Assembly (NCBI RefSeq): GCF_025152745.1
Contig: NZ_CP104040.1
Location: 4,121,501 to 4,185,500, forward strand
DNA length: 64,000 nt
Source of the DNA: Rhizobium sp. WSM4643
GTDB taxonomy: Bacteria; Pseudomonadota; Alphaproteobacteria; Rhizobiales; Rhizobiaceae
Reading direction: 5' to 3'
Below the pieces are notes generated by a model that was not told the origin of the DNA, did no database searches, and was given only the letters and a program-made list of their open reading frames with translations. Shown one piece after another: positions 22,170 to 31,229 of this stretch; positions within the stretch are counted from its first letter, which is position 1; the number at the start of each line of letters is the position of its first letter. The translations under genes were made by a program, and so were the position numbers.

Positions 22170-24098
22170 ATGCGGATTAGAGGGACAGGTCCGAAAACAA
22201 GTACTGCGTATCGGCGAACAGGCACCATGATGGTGGTCGCAGCGGCAGCTGCGTTCTCACCGGTCCTGATCGGCGACGCTTACGCCTTCAAGCTTTTCGG
22301 CATCACCATTTTCGGCAAAGAGGAAGACGAAGGCGAACAGGTGCCCGATCCGGTGCGCTACCACGTCGACCTCAGGGCCGATACCGCCGATCCCGACCTG
22401 AAAGAAGCGTTGGAAAACAGTTCCCGTCTTGTCAGCGACCAGAAGCAGCCGGTGTCCGGCGATCTCGGCATCGTCGTCAAAGCGCGCGACGACCGAGAGC
22501 GCCTGATCGCCACTCTCTATGAAAAGGCCCGTTATGGCGGCCTGGTGACGATCACCATCGACGGCAAGAATATCGACGACCTGCCACCCAATCCGACATT
22601 CGACCGGTCCGGCCCGATCCGCGTCACCGTCGACATTGCTCCCGGCCCGGTTTTCAAGGTCAGGGAAGTTCAGTTCGGCGGCGATGCCGCAAACCATAAT
22701 CCCGCCGATTACGATCTCGCCCCGGGCGCTGAGGCCGGCTCGCTCGCCATCATCAAGGCCGGCGACAAGATTGTCGAACAATTGAAGAGCGAAGGTCGGC
22801 CGTTTGCCAAGTTGACCGAACGCAAGGTCGTCGCCGATCACAACAGCGATACCGTCGATATCGTCCTTGCTGCCGAGGGCGGTCCCGTCGCCCCGATCGG
22901 CGATGTGGGCGTCACCGGCGAAAAGACCGTCAAGCCGACTTTCATCCAGCGTTATTCCCGGCTGAACAAGGGCGAAGCCTATTCCCCGGAAGCACTGAAG
23001 AAAGCCGGCGAGCGCCTTCGCGCCCTCGGCGTCTTTTCGAGCGTCACCATCCACCAAGGGGATGCATTGGCGCCTGACGGCACCTTGCCGATGACGATCG
23101 AGGTTTCCGAGGGCAAAAGGCGCTACTTCGGCGTCGGCGCTCAATATTCCACCACCGACGGCTTCGGTGTTCAGGGTTATTGGGGCCACCGCAACCTGTT
23201 CGGCGAAGCCGAAACGCTGAGGATCGAGGGATCGGTCTCCAGGCTTGGCGAAACGACGGATGTCGGCAGCCTCGACTATTCCGCCGGCATCCTCTTCACC
23301 AAGCCCGGCGCCTTCTTTCCCGCCGCTACTCTGAAGGCCGGCATCGTCGCCAAGACCGAAAATCCGGATGCTTACAACGCGACGCTCGTCACCGCCTCGC
23401 TCGGCCTTTCCTACGAGCTGACCGACCGGGACACCGTCTCGGCGAGCGGCGAGGTCAGCTGGGAGCGCGACGACGACGCCTTCGGCACGAACGACTATCT
23501 GACCTTTGCCTTGCCGATCAAATATGATCGCGATGCACGCGACGACAAGTTCAACCCGACAGAGGGCTATCGCGCGACATTCTCGGCAAAGCCTGGCTAC
23601 GAAATCTTCAACGCCACGCCCTATGCGGCATTCGAGGGCTCGATTTCCGGCTATTTGCCGTTCGGCCAGGAAGACGGCCTGGTGCTTGCCGGCAAGGTTG
23701 CCGCCGGCGTCCTGATCGGCGGCGATAGCATTGGGGACATTCCCGCCACCCAGCGCTTCTTTGCCGGCGGCGGCGGTTCTGTGCGCGGATACAGCTATCA
23801 GGAAATCTCGCCCTACAACGACAATGGCGATGCCACCGGCGGCCGCTCCTATGTGACCGGTTCGCTGGAGGCTCGCATCAAGATCACCGATACGATCGGC
23901 ATCGTGCCCTTCGTCGATGTCGGCACGGTATCGGACAGCACCTTTCCGGGTTTTTCCAATATCCGCGCCGGCGCCGGCGCCGGAATACGATATGCAACGC
24001 CTTTCGGCCCGCTGCGGCTTGATTTTGCCGTGCCGCTAAACAAGTACGAAGATGGCACAGATTACGGAATCTACGCCGGCATTGGCCAATCCTTCTAG
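22170..24098 (+). CDS. tamA: TamA, Omp85-family outer-membrane protein of the translocation and assembly module
   Basis: A 642-residue protein with POTRA domains (residues ~45-330) followed by a 16-strand Omp85 barrel (residues ~340-642). The conserved lid-lock motif is VRGYSY within FAGGGGSVRGYSYQEIS, and the barrel ends with a Phe (GIYAGIGQSF), the usual outer-membrane signal. A signal peptide is seen at MMVVAAAAAFSPVLIGDAYA. With TamB, encoded 31 bases downstream, it helps insert proteins into, or carry lipids to, the outer membrane. ATG 22170 has only a weak ribosome site; ATG 22227 is an alternative that keeps the signal peptide. Confidence 0.9.
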   Translation: MRIRGTGPKTSTAYRRTGTMMVVAAAAAFSPVLIGDAYAFKLFGITIFGKEEDEGEQVPDPVRYHVDLRADTADPDLKEALENSSRLVSDQKQPVSGDLGIVVKARDDRERLIATLYEKARYGGLVTITIDGKNIDDLPPNPTFDRSGPIRVTVDIAPGPVFKVREVQFGGDAANHNPADYDLAPGAEAGSLAIIKAGDKIVEQLKSEGRPFAKLTERKVVADHNSDTVDIVLAAEGGPVAPIGDVGVTGEKTVKPTFIQRYSRLNKGEAYSPEALKKAGERLRALGVFSSVTIHQGDALAPDGTLPMTIEVSEGKRRYFGVGAQYSTTDGFGVQGYWGHRNLFGEAETLRIEGSVSRLGETTDVGSLDYSAGILFTKPGAFFPAATLKAGIVAKTENPDAYNATLVTASLGLSYELTDRDTVSASGEVSWERDDDAFGTNDYLTFALPIKYDRDARDDKFNPTEGYRATFSAKPGYEIFNATPYAAFEGSISGYLPFGQEDGLVLAGKVAAGVLIGGDSIGDIPATQRFFAGGGGSVRGYSYQEISPYNDNGDATGGRSYVTGSLEARIKITDTIGIVPFVDVGTVSDSTFPGFSNIRAGAGAGIRYATPFGPLRLDFAVPLNKYEDGTDYGIYAGIGQSF

Positions 24099-24128: not shown

Positions 24129-27100
24129 GTGAGCCGTCATGAAAACGGGGTAGTGTCCGCGCCGATGCAAACGCTGGCAAAAATCGTTAACTGGATCGTA
24201 CGGCTCACCGGCTATGCCGTCGGTGCCACTTTGATTCTCGCCGTCGTAGCGCTGGCGATCTTCGGCTTCACCAGTTTTGGCGCTCGCATCGTCACCGAAA
24301 AGATAGCCTCCACGCTTTCCAACCGCGACATGACGATCGAGGTTCGCGAACCGCAAGGCCTTTTGACCGGCGGGCTGCGGGCCGCCGAGATTTCCATCTC
24401 CGACACCAGGGGCGTCTTTGCGGAAATTCATGGCGTCGCGATCGACTGGAATCCGCTTGCGCTGCTGACGGGAACTTTCCATGCCAAACGCTTCGAGATC
24501 GAAGCGATCAACGTGCTGCGCAAGCCGGTGCGCACCCTCCCCTCGCGGCCCGGAGCTGAAAATTCCGGCGGATTTAATCTTCCGATCAAGGTCGATATAG
24601 ACCGTGTCGCACTGCCCGATATCAAACTTGCCGCACCTGTTGCCGGCCGCGCCTTTGCGCTCGCCGCCGAGGGCAGCCTTTCGGCAAATGGCGATGGCGG
24701 CGAGGCCGTCGTCAATGTCAGCCGTCACGCGGTCCCGGATGCGCGGCTTGCCGCCGACATCGCCTTTGCGCCGGCCGAAAACCGGCTGCGGTTGAAGGCG
24801 CAACTGTCCGAGCCGAAGGGCGGGCTGCTGGCGGGCTTTCTCGGCTTGCCGGACAGCCCGGCCGTCAACATTGATCTCGACGGCCAGGGGCCGATATCCG
24901 ATTGGAAAGGCAAAGTGCAGGCCGCCCTCGACGGGCAGCAGCGCGCCGCAATCGAGGCCCGGCATCAGATCACGGCAGACGGGCTGCACCATCTCGACCT
25001 CAAGGGTGGCGGTGACCTGAGCTCGCTGCTTCCATCGGCATTCCGGCCGCTTTTTGCCGGCCAGACCAATATCGATCTTGCCACGACCTTCGACAATCAC
25101 GGCAAGATCGATATCCAGACCGGCAATATCGCCACCGGCAGCGTGGTGATCGCCGCCTCGGGCACCCTCGATCCGGCCGGCAACAACAGCCTGAACGCCA
25201 ATCTGCTCGGCACGTCGGGGCCTGTCGATTTCCGCTGGCCGCTCGCCGAAGGCGAAGCGCGCTTCCTCATTTCTGGCCTCAACCTGGCACTGACAGGCGA
25301 TGCGCAGGCGGCCCGGCTGAACGTCAGCGGCTCGCTCGACACCGCAACCCTCCCGCAGGCCAATATCGGCAATATCAAGCTGACCGCAAAGAGCGACGCC
25401 TTCAATCTCGCCGCCCGTTCCGGCAGCGTCCAGCTGCGCCTCGTTGCCGGCGACGTAACCTTCTCCGACCCGAACCTCAATCGCGCCGTCCAGGGCCCGG
25501 TCACGATCGCCTCGCCGCTGCAGATCTCGCCCAGTGGCATCGGCTTCAACGCCACCACCGTCGAAAGCGCCAATATCAACGGCGGCCTTAACGGCTCCTA
25601 TCGGCTGGCAGACAAGGCGCTGACCGGCAACCTCAAGCTCACCATCGACCCGGCAGCCCTGCCGGCTGCGGTGACAAGCAGGTTCGACGGACCGATCTCG
25701 TTCGAAAGCCAGATGGTCGGCACCATCCCGTCAAAATTCGCGCTGTCCAACATCGTCCTGAAATCCGGCACGCTCGAAGCCGCCGGCAACGTCGCGCTCG
25801 ACGGCGGGATGTTGAATGCCGATCTCTCCGGCCGGTTGCCTGACATCGGCAAGCTCATCCCCGGCGCCAGTGGTGGCGCGGGTTATGCATTGAGAGTTGG
25901 CGGTGAGCTCCCGGCAATCTCGGTGACGGCCAATCTGAAGGCCGCCAGCCTTGAAATGGCCGACCGCGTGCTCGGCAATCTGAATATCGACCTGTCAGGG
26001 CTCGCCGATCCCAAGGCGCCGCAGGGCAGGATCGCCGCCACCGGCACGATCGACGGCCAGCCGATCGGCATCAACGGTGACATCAGTTCGCGGGACGGCA
26101 AGACGAGTATTCCGGCTTTGACCGCTGATATCGGCGGCAACCGGCTGACCGGCAATGTGGAATTCTCGCCTTCCCTGGAGCCAACAGGCGCACTGACTTT
26201 CGATTTCCCCAATGTCGGCCTGCTTGCCGCACTCGGCGGACAGAAAGCCGACGGTGATCTCAAGGGGTCGCTTGGCGTGAGCAGCGATAGCGGCAGGATT
26301 GCGCTCAAGCTGCTTGCAACAGGCGGATCGATCCGCCGTGATACGCTTGCGATCACCAAGCCGGATATCGATGTCACGGTCAGCGATCTCAAAGCCCTTG
26401 CCGCAAAAGGTACGGTCAAGGCCGCGGAGGTGAGTGTCGGAACGAACAGGCTGGCCGGGTTTTCGCTCGATTTTACCAAGCAGCAAGACCATACCGACTT
26501 CCATCTCGATGCTGCCTATGACGGCAATCCCGTGCTGGCGGCCGGCAATATCGAGGCGGCGGCCGGTACGATGCAGCTGAACCTCGATCGCTTTTCGGCA
26601 AGCCCCCGCAATATCCCGATCGAGCTTGCCGCACCGACGCAGGTCACCATCGGCGGCGGTGCCGCCAGTCTGAACGGACTGACGCTGAAGACCGGCACCG
26701 GTTCGGTGACTGTCACCGGTTCCGCCGGTGAAACGCTGAAGCTCGATGCAGACATCCACGAGCTGCCGGCAGCGCTCGCCAACGGTTTCGTGCCCAACCT
26801 TTCAGCCGGCGGCACGATCTCCGGAACGATTGCCGTAACCGGAACGCCGGCAGCACCGGTCGCCGACTTCAAGCTCGACTGGAAGGATGCGACGACGGGC
26901 CAGATAAAGGGGGCGGGCCTGGCACCGCTCGGCATCACCGCCGGTGGCAAATTCGCCGACAACAAGCTCGATTTCGACACGACGATTGGCAGCAATGACG
27001 GACTGTCGCTGAAGGCAGCCGGCAATGTCGCGCTCGCCGACCCGAAGGCGCCGGTGCTTGATGTCAATGCCGATATCCTCAACCTGCCTGCCCGCATTGC

Positions 27101-30100
27101 CAATGGCTTCGTTCCCGATCTCGCCGCCGAAGGCACGATTACAGGAAAACTGGCCGCCTCCGGCTCGCTCGCTGCTCCCACCGCCAATTTCGATCTCGAT
27201 TGGAAAAGTGCTGCGACCAGCCAGACGAAGCGTGCGGGCCTTGCCGACCTCGCCGTCAAGGCATCCGGAAAATTCGGCGACAACAAGCTCGATTTCAACA
27301 CGGCGATTGGCGGTGCCAACAGTCTCTCGCTGAAGGCAAACGGCAATATCGCCATCACGGGTACGACGATCGGTAACGTCACGGTCGATGCCGCACTGGC
27401 GAATGTTCCGGCAAATATCGCAAACAGCTTCGTCCCCGATCTCGCCGCCGAAGGCGCGATCTCTGGAAAGATCTCCGCCAGCGGGTCGCTCTCCGCCCCG
27501 AGTGCCGATTTCGATCTCGATTGGAAAGACGCTGCGACGAGCCAGACGAAGCGTGCGGGCCTTGCAGCGCTCGGCGTGACCGCATCAGGAAAATTCACCG
27601 AAAACAAGCTCGATTTCGACGCGGTGATCGTCGGCGCCAACAGCCTCTCCTTAAAGGCAACCGGCGATGTCGCCATCACGGGCACGACGATCGGCAATGT
27701 CACGGTCGACGCCGCACTGGCGAATGTTCCCGCAAATATCGCAAACAGCTTCGTCGCCGATCTCTCCGCCGAAGGCGCGATCTCAGGAAAGATCGCGGCC
27801 AGCGGGTCGCTCACCGCCCCGAATGCCGATTTCGATCTCAATTGGAAAGATGCTGCGACCAGCCACACGAAACGGGCTGGCCTTGTAGCGCTCGGCATGA
27901 CCGCATCAGGAAAACTTGCGGATAATAAGCTCGATTTCAGCACGGTGATCGTCGGCGCCAACAGCCTCTCCTTAAAGGCAAACGGCAATGTCGCCATCAC
28001 GGGCACGACAATCGGCAACGTGAAAGTCGATGCCGCGCTGGCCAATGTTCCCGCAAACATCGCAAACGACTTCGTCGCCGATCTCGCCGCCGAAGGCGCG
28101 ATCTCGGGAACGGTCTCTGCCAGCGGCTCTCTTTCCGCCCCGACCGCCAATTTCGATCTGAATTGGAAGAATGCCGCGACGAGCCAGACGAAACGCGCCG
28201 GCCTTGCAGCGCTCGGCGTGACCGCATCGGGAAAACTTGCGGATAATAAGCTCGATTTCGACACGGTGATCGGCGGCGCCAACAGCCTCTCGCTGACGGC
28301 AAAGGGCAATGTCGCCATCACGGGCACGACAATCAGCGACGTCAAAGTCGACGCCGCGCTGGCCAATGTTCCCGCAAACATCGCAAACGACTTCGTCGCC
28401 GATCTCGCCGCCGAAGGCGCGATCTCAGGAAAGATCTCGGTCAGCGGGTCGCTCTCCGCCCCGAATGCCGATTTCGATCTCAATTGGAAAGATGCTGCGA
28501 CGAGCCACACGAAACGGGCCGGCCTTGCAGCGCTCGGCGTGACCGCATCGGGAAAATTTGCGGAAAACAAGCTTGATTTCAACGCGGCAGTCAGCGGCGA
28601 TAAAGACCTTTCACTAAAGGCCATCGGCAATGTCGCATTGGCTGGTACGGCGATCGACAGCATCAAGGTCGATGCCGAGATCGCCAAGCTTCCCGCCAGC
28701 CTCGCAAATGCCTTCGTTCCCGATCTCGCGGCCGGCGGCACGATTTCCGGCACCATGGCCGCCGCCGGAACATTCGCCGCACCGAAAGCCGACTTCAAGC
28801 TCGACTGGACCGACGCTGCGACCAGCCAGACCCGACTCGCGCACCTCTCCGGCCTGGCACTTGCCGCATCGGGACACTTTGCCGACAACCGGCTCGATTT
28901 CGATACCAATCTCGCCGGCCAGGGCGGCCTTTCGCTGAAGGCCGCCGGCAACGTTGCGATTTCAGGCACGTCGGTTCGCAACCTTGACGTCAAGGCCGAT
29001 CTCGCCAACCTTCCGGCAGGCCTCGCCAACGGCTTCGTCCCGGGTCTTGCCGCAGAAGGCACCGTCTCGGGAACGGCATCGGCTTCTGGCACACTTCCAA
29101 AGCCGGCGGTCGATTTCAAGCTCGACTGGAAGAACGCCGCGACCGCCCAGACCAAGAGCAGCGGCCTTTTGGGCTTGAACGCTGCGGCATCCGGCAAGTT
29201 CGCCAATGACCGGGTCGATTTCGACGCTAATCTCGCCGGCAAGGACGGCGTGTTGGCCAAGGCAAAGGGCGGCGTCACGATCGCGGGAACCGCCATCCGG
29301 GACCTTTCGATCAATGCCGATATCCCGGCGCTGCCGGCAAATATCGCAAATGCCTTCGTTCCCGGCCTCGGTGCCGAAGGCACGCTTTCGGCAAGCGCCA
29401 TAACGTCGGGAACGCCGGCCAATCCGATCGTCGACTTCAAGCTCGACTGGAAAGATGCCGCGACCAGCCACACCAAGGCTGCCGGCCTGTCCCGCCTCGC
29501 GCTGGCGGCAACGGGAAAATATGCCGGTGACAGGCTGGATTTCGACGCGAACCTGACTGGCGGCGGCGGCATGGCGCTGAAAGCAGCCGGCGATCTTTCG
29601 ATCGCAGGCACGTCGATCCGCTCGGTCGACGTCACGGCGAACGCCACCAATGTTCCGGCCGGCATCGCCAACGGCTTCGTTCCCGGCCTTGCCGCCGAGG
29701 GCGCGGTCTCGGCGACCGTAAAGGCCACCGGCGCGCTATCGGCGCCGTCGGTCGATTTCAAGGTCGACTGGAAGAACGCAGGGACGAGCCAGACAAAAGG
29801 CGCCGGCCTTTCGCCGTTCACCATCGGTGCGTCAGGCAAACTTGCCGGAAACAAGCTGACGGTCGACACCAGCCTTGCCGGTGACGCCGGCATGTCGCTG
29901 AAGGGCGGCGGCAGTGTCGTGATCACAGGCAATCGCGCCATCGACATGCACTTCACAGGCAATCTTCCCTTTGCCGTGCTCGGCGCCCCGCTCGCGCAGC
30001 AGGGCCTCGTCGCGGACGGCGTCGCCACTGTCAATCTCCAGATTGGCGGAACGGCCGCAGCACCCGTCATCAATGGCACGGTCTCCACCAACGGCGCCAA

Positions 30101-31229
30101 GCTCGTCGACGTCCGGCGCAATCTGGCGGTCAACAATCTCGCGGCAACCGTAACCTTCAATGGCAGCCAGGCCGTGATATCGCGTCTCAGCGGCAACCTT
30201 GGCGGCGGCGGCACGATTTCTGCAAGCGGCACGATCGGCATCCAGCCGGCTGGCGGCTTTCCCGCCGACATTTCGATCAAGCTCGACAAAGCAGTCTACG
30301 TCGATGGAACGCTTGTCGTCTCGACCGTCAACGGCACGGTCGGCCTGCGCGGGCCGATCGCCAGTGCGACGCTGAGCGGCAAACTGCTGCTGGACAAGAC
30401 CTCAATCACGGTCCCGGAAAAACTGCCGACCTCGCTGAGAGAAATCGACATCCGGCACAAGAATGCGCCGCGCGCCGTGCTTGCGCAGATGCGCGATAAC
30501 GGCGAGCGCAAACCTGGGGAGAAATCCTCCGTGATCACGCTGAATCTCGAAATCGACGCGCCTTCGCATATCTTCGTTCGCGGCCGCGGCATCGACGCCG
30601 AACTCGGCGGCCAGGTGACGATCCGCGGAACGGCGGCTGCACCCATCGTGACCGGCGGTTTCACCATGCGCCGCGGCCGCCTGACCATTCTCAACCGTCG
30701 CCTGGACTTCTCTGACAAGAGCAGGATCACCTTTGCCGGCGACTTGACGCCGGCGCTCGATATGGAAGCGACATCGTCCTCCGGCACGACGACGCTGACC
30801 GTCGACGTCGCGGGCCTTGCCACCGATCCCGCAATCACTTTCTCCTCCTCGCCCGAGCTGCCGCAGGACGAGGTGCTGGCACAGCTGATCTTCGGCCAGT
30901 CGATGTCGAAGCTCTCGCCGGTGCAGATCGCTCAGCTCGCCGATGCCGTCAGTCAGCTGGCCGGCAACCGCTCCACCTCGCTTTTCGAAGGCCTACGCAA
31001 TCAACTCGGCGTCGACGATTTCGACGTCAGCACCGATTCCAAGGGCCAGACGAGCGTCAGCGTCGGCCGCTATCTCAACGATCGCACCTATTTCGAATTG
31101 CAGCAGGGCGGTTCGGCCGGCGCCAAGGCGGTGATCAACCTCGATGTCGGCCGCGGCGTCAAGCTGCGCGGAGGGGCCGGTGGCAACGGTGAGGGCGAAG
31201 CCGGGATTGTCTACGAACGAGAATACTGA
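24129..31229 (+). CDS. tamB: TamB, giant inner-membrane-anchored translocation and assembly protein with ten 107-residue repeats
   Basis: At 2366 residues this is almost twice the E. coli TamB (about 1260). An N-terminal anchor helix (YAVGATLILAVVALAIFGF, residues ~29-47) is followed by AsmA-like beta-rich sequence and a C-terminal DUF490/TamB domain (residues ~2010-2366; GNLGGGGTISASGTI, RGRGIDAELGGQVTIRG, FGQSMSKLSPVQIAQL, ending VYEREY). Residues ~873-1942 are ten in-register repeats of exactly 107 residues. TamB proteins form a long hydrophobic beta groove bridging inner and outer membranes; the extra repeats should lengthen it. It starts 31 bases after tamA. GTG 24129 is used; ATG 24165 is equally possible. 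Confidence 0.92.
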   Translation: MSRHENGVVSAPMQTLAKIVNWIVRLTGYAVGATLILAVVALAIFGFTSFGARIVTEKIASTLSNRDMTIEVREPQGLLTGGLRAAEISISDTRGVFAEIHGVAIDWNPLALLTGTFHAKRFEIEAINVLRKPVRTLPSRPGAENSGGFNLPIKVDIDRVALPDIKLAAPVAGRAFALAAEGSLSANGDGGEAVVNVSRHAVPDARLAADIAFAPAENRLRLKAQLSEPKGGLLAGFLGLPDSPAVNIDLDGQGPISDWKGKVQAALDGQQRAAIEARHQITADGLHHLDLKGGGDLSSLLPSAFRPLFAGQTNIDLATTFDNHGKIDIQTGNIATGSVVIAASGTLDPAGNNSLNANLLGTSGPVDFRWPLAEGEARFLISGLNLALTGDAQAARLNVSGSLDTATLPQANIGNIKLTAKSDAFNLAARSGSVQLRLVAGDVTFSDPNLNRAVQGPVTIASPLQISPSGIGFNATTVESANINGGLNGSYRLADKALTGNLKLTIDPAALPAAVTSRFDGPISFESQMVGTIPSKFALSNIVLKSGTLEAAGNVALDGGMLNADLSGRLPDIGKLIPGASGGAGYALRVGGELPAISVTANLKAASLEMADRVLGNLNIDLSGLADPKAPQGRIAATGTIDGQPIGINGDISSRDGKTSIPALTADIGGNRLTGNVEFSPSLEPTGALTFDFPNVGLLAALGGQKADGDLKGSLGVSSDSGRIALKLLATGGSIRRDTLAITKPDIDVTVSDLKALAAKGTVKAAEVSVGTNRLAGFSLDFTKQQDHTDFHLDAAYDGNPVLAAGNIEAAAGTMQLNLDRFSASPRNIPIELAAPTQVTIGGGAASLNGLTLKTGTGSVTVTGSAGETLKLDADIHELPAALANGFVPNLSAGGTISGTIAVTGTPAAPVADFKLDWKDATTGQIKGAGLAPLGITAGGKFADNKLDFDTTIGSNDGLSLKAAGNVALADPKAPVLDVNADILNLPARIANGFVPDLAAEGTITGKLAASGSLAAPTANFDLDWKSAATSQTKRAGLADLAVKASGKFGDNKLDFNTAIGGANSLSLKANGNIAITGTTIGNVTVDAALANVPANIANSFVPDLAAEGAISGKISASGSLSAPSADFDLDWKDAATSQTKRAGLAALGVTASGKFTENKLDFDAVIVGANSLSLKATGDVAITGTTIGNVTVDAALANVPANIANSFVADLSAEGAISGKIAASGSLTAPNADFDLNWKDAATSHTKRAGLVALGMTASGKLADNKLDFSTVIVGANSLSLKANGNVAITGTTIGNVKVDAALANVPANIANDFVADLAAEGAISGTVSASGSLSAPTANFDLNWKNAATSQTKRAGLAALGVTASGKLADNKLDFDTVIGGANSLSLTAKGNVAITGTTISDVKVDAALANVPANIANDFVADLAAEGAISGKISVSGSLSAPNADFDLNWKDAATSHTKRAGLAALGVTASGKFAENKLDFNAAVSGDKDLSLKAIGNVALAGTAIDSIKVDAEIAKLPASLANAFVPDLAAGGTISGTMAAAGTFAAPKADFKLDWTDAATSQTRLAHLSGLALAASGHFADNRLDFDTNLAGQGGLSLKAAGNVAISGTSVRNLDVKADLANLPAGLANGFVPGLAAEGTVSGTASASGTLPKPAVDFKLDWKNAATAQTKSSGLLGLNAAASGKFANDRVDFDANLAGKDGVLAKAKGGVTIAGTAIRDLSINADIPALPANIANAFVPGLGAEGTLSASAITSGTPANPIVDFKLDWKDAATSHTKAAGLSRLALAATGKYAGDRLDFDANLTGGGGMALKAAGDLSIAGTSIRSVDVTANATNVPAGIANGFVPGLAAEGAVSATVKATGALSAPSVDFKVDWKNAGTSQTKGAGLSPFTIGASGKLAGNKLTVDTSLAGDAGMSLKGGGSVVITGNRAIDMHFTGNLPFAVLGAPLAQQGLVADGVATVNLQIGGTAAAPVINGTVSTNGAKLVDVRRNLAVNNLAATVTFNGSQAVISRLSGNLGGGGTISASGTIGIQPAGGFPADISIKLDKAVYVDGTLVVSTVNGTVGLRGPIASATLSGKLLLDKTSITVPEKLPTSLREIDIRHKNAPRAVLAQMRDNGERKPGEKSSVITLNLEIDAPSHIFVRGRGIDAELGGQVTIRGTAAAPIVTGGFTMRRGRLTILNRRLDFSDKSRITFAGDLTPALDMEATSSSGTTTLTVDVAGLATDPAITFSSSPELPQDEVLAQLIFGQSMSKLSPVQIAQLADAVSQLAGNRSTSLFEGLRNQLGVDDFDVSTDSKGQTSVSVGRYLNDRTYFELQQGGSAGAKAVINLDVGRGVKLRGGAGGNGEGEAGIVYEREY
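26745..29954 (+). repeat. Ten tandem 321-bp repeats inside tamB
   Basis: Unit starts are 26745, 27066, 27387, 27708, 28029, 28350, 28671, 28992, 29313 and 29634; the following degenerate segment begins at 29955. Every interval is exactly 321 bp (107 codons), with no insertion or deletion. Landmarks in each unit: an ANxFVPxLAAEG-like stretch, a DFxLDWKxAATSQTK-like stretch, a GKxxxNKLDF-like stretch and a GNVAITGT-like end. Units 3 to 6 are nearly identical in DNA and protein, while outer units have diverged, a pattern of recent expansion or homogenisation from the middle. Confidence 0.95.

Follow-up and report, generated by a model that had tools for sequence, protein, structure and literature searches.

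We analyzed a window of 64,000 nucleotides (nt) from Rhizobium sp. WSM4643 (contig NZ_CP104040.1, positions 4,121,501 to 4,185,500), in which a tamB-like gene carries ten copies of a 321-base-pair (bp) unit. A first-pass annotation, made from the letters alone, had described a TamB with ten in-register repeats at 26745..29954, and this is borne out: the ten units lie in frame within one open reading frame (ORF, 24129-31229), and their start-to-start spacings are all exactly 321 bp with zero insertions or deletions (indels). The annotation had counted ten such intervals; the spacing is indeed exact, but ten units give nine intervals. The features of the locus are as follows, in window coordinates, with lengths in amino acids (aa):

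22170..24098, + strand: tamA-type gene, 642 aa (Pfam Omp85 209.7 bits, POTRA 39.6 bits)
24129..31229, + strand: tamB-like ORF holding the array, 2366 aa from GTG (intact frame; Pfam)
25863..26078, + strand: weak diverged module copy ahead of the array, aa 579-650, 22 bits (iterated unit profile)
26745..27065, + strand: unit 1, ortholog of unit 1 in seven-unit strains
27066..27386, + strand: unit 2, called B (unit comparison)
27387..27707, + strand: unit 3, chimera with its first ~218 nt C-like and the remainder B-like (junction within 27604-27611 against locus L031; unit nt 195-210 against the window's own units)
27708..28028, + strand: unit 4, C/B chimera (junction within 27925-27932 against L031)
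28029..28349, + strand: unit 5, C/B chimera (junction within 28246-28253 against L031)
28350..28670, + strand: unit 6, called C, ortholog of unit 3 in seven-unit strains
28671..28991, + strand: unit 7, ortholog of unit 4 in seven-unit strains
28992..29312, + strand: unit 8, ortholog of unit 5 in seven-unit strains
29313..29633, + strand: unit 9, ortholog of unit 6 in seven-unit strains
29634..29954, + strand: unit 10, ortholog of unit 7 in seven-unit strains
29964..30239, + strand: diverged module copy right behind the array, aa 1946-2037, 56 bits, which single-unit TamBs have too (iterated unit profile)
30183..31226, + strand: conserved TamB C-terminal domain PF04357 (Pfam)

The array is far above chance, because the sequence flanking it, compared at the same spacing, shows 24-31% base identity to the units, against 59-89% between the units themselves, and because Tandem Repeats Finder scores the array core (27105-28831) at 2087. 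Units 3-6 had been called almost identical in DNA, which is overstated: they are 83.2-89.4% identical among themselves in DNA and 77-84% in protein. Unit 2 shares 72-78% of its bases with units 3-6, and the remaining unit pairs share 59-69%.

The identification as TamB is supported in the sense of a TamB-like protein, a name backed by the PF04357 match (219.4 bits against a cut-off of 22.4, aa 2019-2366) and by the Omp85/TamA-type gene with POTRA immediately upstream. Against the NCBIfam equivalog NF047952 (autotransporter assembly complex protein TamB) the protein scores 165.8 bits, under the cut-off of 825, and we therefore speak of a TamB-domain or TamB-like protein and do not name it an equivalog. 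The translation has a hydrophobic stretch near its N-terminus, and an ORF of more than 450 aa, recognised by position and size only, lies upstream at 69 of the 70 other loci. The protein would be anchored in the inner membrane and work as a beta-groove protein with TamA at the outer membrane. Starting from ATG 24165 it would have 2354 aa, which equals the nine-unit length of 2247 aa plus 107; judged by this length series, ATG is the likelier start. Public annotation often names this protein and its relatives 'filamentous hemagglutinin adherence factor', a label that the repeats may have prompted. An antisense open frame (26516-30289, - strand, 1257 aa) crosses the entire array and likely reflects only the base composition and the codon pattern that recurs with the units, rather than a gene.

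Each unit encodes a 107-aa module that is predicted, in a structure model of middling quality, to form six strands and two short helices; this holds for eight of the ten units, with the first strand covered over 8 residues only in the unit strand scoring. Residues 785-1171 of the model align with residues 870-1241 of solved TamB, and a profile search of PDB retrieves TamB, while a plain PDB sequence search with the window protein gave zero matches at E <= 1. By prediction, then, the protein has the long amphipathic beta groove known as a beta-taco, built from tandem repeated domains with ten like units in one chain, and structure prediction thereby supports the earlier claim that the array belongs to the TamB beta groove. 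The six-strand unit and the continuous groove are predictions throughout. With the iterated unit profile, a further diverged module appears directly after the array or single unit in all 59 proteins of the order that were given to the profile (35-67 bits), and weak module copies appear elsewhere in the order's TamBs, so the module appears to be one of the pieces from which the groove itself is built.

Unit numbers come from a profile built on the ten window units and applied to 74 named loci, from a collection with one genome per species. Four loci (L057, L064, L065 and L066) are cut by contig ends and were dropped, and the 70 complete ones make 71 with the window. Seven units are present in 42 of these loci, eight in 20, six, nine and ten in one each, and exactly one in six. 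The single-unit loci belong to five species of a sister Rhizobium clade (R. leucaenae, R. mayense, R. calliandrae and two further species) and to Allorhizobium borbori, on which we rooted the flank tree; the window's clade has 6-10 units. Since both the sister clade and Allorhizobium have one, the unit is an ancient component of TamB, multiplied afterwards. The flank tree requires at least 14 changes of unit number among the 71 loci, and unit number is clustered on it (0 of 200 shuffles as low).

The same variation is found among closer relatives. Among the 120 of 827 protein-cluster matches listed, seven units correspond to 2032-2042 aa (35 clusters), eight to 2140-2149 aa (80) and nine to 2247 aa (5), in steps of 107 aa; all three lengths are found under both R. 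leguminosarum and R. laguerreae, and each occurs on contigs of at least 4.5 Mb. One nine-unit cluster (P0006) and one eight-unit cluster (P0019) have identical flanks (860 + 424 aa) and differ by one 107-aa indel and four residues. A second pair (P0009/P0084) has 11 flank differences, and 56 array differences remain once one unit is removed, which indicates more than a single-unit change; a third (P0078/P0105) is out of register and uninformative. Pairs with different unit numbers make up 3 of 495 at a flank identity of at least 99%, 2391 of 3565 at 95-97% and 621 of 1918 at 90-95%. The strain-to-strain variation in copy number that the annotation had expected is therefore real, as seen in the 107-aa steps, the pair one unit apart and the changes on the tree. 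Two other long TamBs, P0159 (1953 aa, Rhizobium sp. BK251) and P0175 (2013 aa, Rhizobiaceae bacterium), have one or two module matches.

The position and make-up of the extra units indicate how they arose. Across strains of the R. leguminosarum complex, seven units match one to one, and the extras follow unit 2 (B) and precede the next matched unit (C). Judged against the B and C units of locus L031, window units 3, 4 and 5 start C-like and finish B-like, with the switch between nt 218 and 225; the switch sits there also in units 3-4 of L032 and in unit 3 of L038. Compared with the window's own units 2 and 6, unit 3 switches at 195-210 and units 4-5 at 213-225; six other window units, taken as a control, have no switch. 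Elsewhere the switch lies at 237-239 (L033), 244-251 (L043, L054), 194-195 (L045, L053), 111-116 (L041), 84-88 (L035, L050) or 48-70 (L034); L036 has a whole second C, and L059 gave no clear switch (205 of 2000). A unit that starts as C, ends as B and lies between B and C therefore fits the product of one unequal homologous exchange, and later conversion may have displaced some breakpoints. These chimeras, together with the one-unit difference between identical flanks, support the unequal exchange that had been suggested. The high identity in mid-array, which had been read as a sign of copy-number change, marks the place of change but not a recent date: synonymous divergence (dS) among units 3-6 is 0.23-0.44, similar to or above that between the window strain and R. 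johnstonii 3841 (0.17-0.31, seven orthologous units), and so these copies are not new. The ratio of nonsynonymous to synonymous divergence (dN/dS) of the seven orthologous units is 0.07-0.25, from which it follows that the units are maintained by selection; in the four paralog unit pairs tested it is 0.25-0.5. Of all units, the last lies closest to the six single-unit relatives, alone or in a tie, in 9 of the 11 loci compared; in 4 of 4, its C-terminal half is the closest.

We propose that the ancestor had one module copy, followed by the diverged module still present in the TamBs compared across the order, and that whole modules were then gained and lost through unequal homologous exchange between neighbours. 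Six strands would be added at each exchange, with the frame preserved; because six is an even number, the up-down order of the sheet and its hydrophobic lining would stay unbroken, and the outcome would be a longer TamB groove with unchanged ends.

Amplification is also seen beyond the genus, in 40 TamBs from genomes of the order. These were mostly picked for length or as contrasts, and we therefore derive no frequencies from them. In the genus coded g142 the period is 102 aa, and 8 of the 10 genomes with a match carry 4, 4, 6, 6, 9, 11, 11 and 11 units. A 101-aa period occurs in g45 (8 and 9 units), g65 (8) and g167 (6), and g71 has a 106-107-aa period in one of two genomes (7 units against 2). 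On a C-terminal tree of 48 rows, runs of at least four units need five changes, each forced by well-supported branches; the tree does not distinguish gains from losses, and it is the differing periods that favour separate gains. A protein search with one amplified TamB added Methylopila/Hansschlegelia proteins, whose lengths step by ~102 aa from 4 to 12 units, and Fulvimarina proteins with 8 or 9 units of 101 aa. The longest seen, P0178, is a metagenome TamB of 3377 aa and 20 units, nearest to Methylopila/Hansschlegelia. The strict unit threshold in this protein set sometimes counts the trailing module, so that P0163 and P0166 score 10 and 8 where their lengths imply 9 and 7, and four proteins of single-unit length score 2. 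Among the phylum-sample matches listed, the six longest TamBs outside the order (G729, G788, G908, G770, G972, G955) have no tandem run by the module profile.

A second route to a long TamB is a single tandem duplication of a 478-622-aa block, found in 18 of 27 tested. We had considered that the long TamBs of other relatives might be old, faded arrays, and reject this for these 18. Internal repeats were sought by lag scans, as self-BLAST is insensitive and misses even the window array; the block duplications score 300-2848, against 30-47 for shuffled controls, and in L132 the two copies are 97% identical across 616 aa. The block copies do not separate into an old first copy and an old second copy (11-12 label changes, 23 copies each); tree support is uneven, and we therefore give no count of origins. 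Seven genomes taken from genus g97 offer a clean natural contrast: in G571 and G588 TamB has ~1415 aa, and G132, G213, G275, G329 and G552 carry a 622-aa block duplication.

To relate TamB length to the rest of the envelope, we compared ten Rhizobium genomes classed by TamB frame length, six with arrays and four of the one-unit group. A long AsmA-family protein has 1239-1258 aa in all ten, and an MlaD-type protein has 456-459 aa in nine; in the tenth, the one-unit genome G002, it reaches 487 aa. The shorter AsmA-family protein measures 634-673 aa with arrays and 658-688 aa in the one-unit group and is, if anything, longer where TamB is short. TamA frames (622-657 aa with one unit, 620-676 aa with more) overlap and do not track unit number. 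A wider envelope would be expected to stretch its other spanning proteins too. As the other envelope proteins examined do not lengthen with TamB, a general widening of the envelope is not supported. In a family sample, 272 of 297 genomes were matched, and 144 of the 150 TamB frames among the matches listed have at least 1380 aa, with a long upper tail; three of the six shorter frames begin at the first bases of a contig. One TamB frame, in the two-contig genome G116, has just 983 aa and may be split or broken. The lengths peak at 1900-1950 aa, and we do not claim a target length here, as block size alone explains the peak.

Taken together, we consider it probable that the array consists of one structural module repeated ten times in register, and that the TamB-like groove has been lengthened in whole modules by unequal homologous exchange, with a lower limit on length and an excess that is tolerated or tuned by lineage. 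At the level of sequence comparison, this builds on what was demonstrated above for module identity, single-copy relatives, chimeric units, gain and loss between close relatives, purifying selection and separate amplification in other genera. The longer TamB presumably still carries lipid or outer-membrane protein. Its length would have a lower limit, as the bridge must reach, and an excess not set by the thickness of the whole envelope; we favour this because a general widening is not supported and nearly all listed family frames reach 1380 aa below a long upper tail.

What governs the excess can be read in several ways. A serious contender, if short of an even bet, is neutral turnover, in which similar adjacent modules exchange, their number drifts and selection weeds out only bridges of insufficient length or broken register. 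The scatter of unit number on the flank tree (14 changes), the 4-20 units of the Methylopila/Hansschlegelia group and the distribution of family lengths are as it would predict; drift does not, however, require that long TamBs arose by two routes in several lineages, and the clustering on the tree and the 7 or 8 units in 62 of 71 loci also speak against it. We regard neutral turnover above a minimum as at least as likely as tuning. More tentatively, TamB length could be a fast-evolving selected trait, with recombination in alphaproteobacteria adjusting the bridge by whole groove modules, many times over and along two routes, independently of the thickness that the other envelope parts impose. 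If so, strains one module apart would differ in the delivery of lipid or outer-membrane protein. It is rather unlikely that the extra modules serve not reach but cargo or partners, by offering certain outer-membrane or surface proteins more area to bind, or by raising lipid capacity. The older units have diverged from one another (dN/dS of 0.25-0.5 in the four paralog pairs) and may hold separate roles, but this divergence is also compatible with simple relaxation after duplication.

The annotation had also proposed that copy number matches envelope thickness, and we find such a ruler, with unit number selected to fit, improbable. TamB is thought to need to reach TamA, and excerpts of PMC11014939 give the E. 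coli protein a modelled length of 17.8 nm, extending to 24.6 nm on stretching, and put the periplasm at ~26 nm. Scaled by residues from that model, one unit would add 1.5-2.1 nm, which is not far from the widening of 3-4 nm reported for Lpp+21 strains in the part of PMC8824477 consulted. By the same scaling, however, a ten-unit TamB would reach 33-46 nm; in addition, across the ten genomes compared the AsmA-family and MlaD-type proteins do not grow with the array, TamA lengths overlap between unit classes, and clusters with identical flanks differ by one unit. This evidence, indirect in that it comes from protein lengths, does not support the match to thickness. Among the top matches in open-licence PMC papers, we found no useful report on rhizobial envelope width. 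That the unit numbers are an assembly artefact is very improbable: short reads are known to struggle with tandem repeats and the closest pair lies on draft-sized contigs, but even where the units are most similar 11-17% of their bases differ, seven-, eight- and nine-unit clusters include contigs of 4.5-5.8 Mb, the 107-aa step is common to 65 of 71 loci, and three strains have a chimera breakpoint in common.

Among known systems, the closest is TamB of E. coli (TamAB; structures 9xdc, 9xdd and 5vtg), which has the same C-terminal TamB domain, an adjoining tamA and a hydrophobic beta groove, predicted in the case of the window protein. The E. coli protein has 1259 aa against ~2354 aa in the window; L165, a TamB of 1259 aa from a genome of the same phylum, has scattered weak module matches (best 17 bits) and no tandem run. 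Excerpts of Heinz 2015 (PMC4494059) describe TamB lengths as relatively consistent with few very long exceptions, and among the top matches in open-licence PMC papers we found no report of variable module number in TamB or a bacterial bridge protein. The AsmA-like proteins YhdP and YdbH belong, according to the part of PMC8593681 consulted, to the same superfamily of proposed lipid bridges as TamB; the AsmA-family proteins of the ten Rhizobium genomes do not lengthen with TamB. Intragenic tandem repeats with a strain-variable number of units are reportedly found in Legionella and other bacteria, but the window gene encodes part of a machine spanning the periplasm, and its unit is a 107-aa structural module.

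The eukaryotic repeating-beta-groove (RBG) bridges, VPS13, ATG2 and their kin, are likewise rods made of repeated groove domains. An RBG domain has five strands and a crossing loop, whereas the window unit is predicted to have six strands and two short helices; the window TamB may work like an RBG bridge, yet we do not file it in the RBG superfamily. In excerpts of PMC7613979, internal duplications of ~500 residues account for the extra length of VPS13C and VPS13D, and domain number is tied by the author to contact width, as a point yet unstudied. Growth of a groove protein by internal duplication is thus already known, and the present case is a TamB-like groove that was probably lengthened in whole modules. 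How long a lipid bridge needs to be, and what an excess does, is relevant to TamB, YhdP and VPS13-type proteins alike. The TamBs described here form a natural series for this question, with 1-10 modules in one genus and 4-20 in another group, and it becomes directly testable because close relatives, some with identical flanks, differ by single modules. In the eukaryotic bridges most of the growth is dated to before the last eukaryotic common ancestor, whereas the unit number of the TamBs described here changes between close relatives, which suggests that bacteria are still extending such bridges by the kind of internal duplication inferred for eukaryotes.

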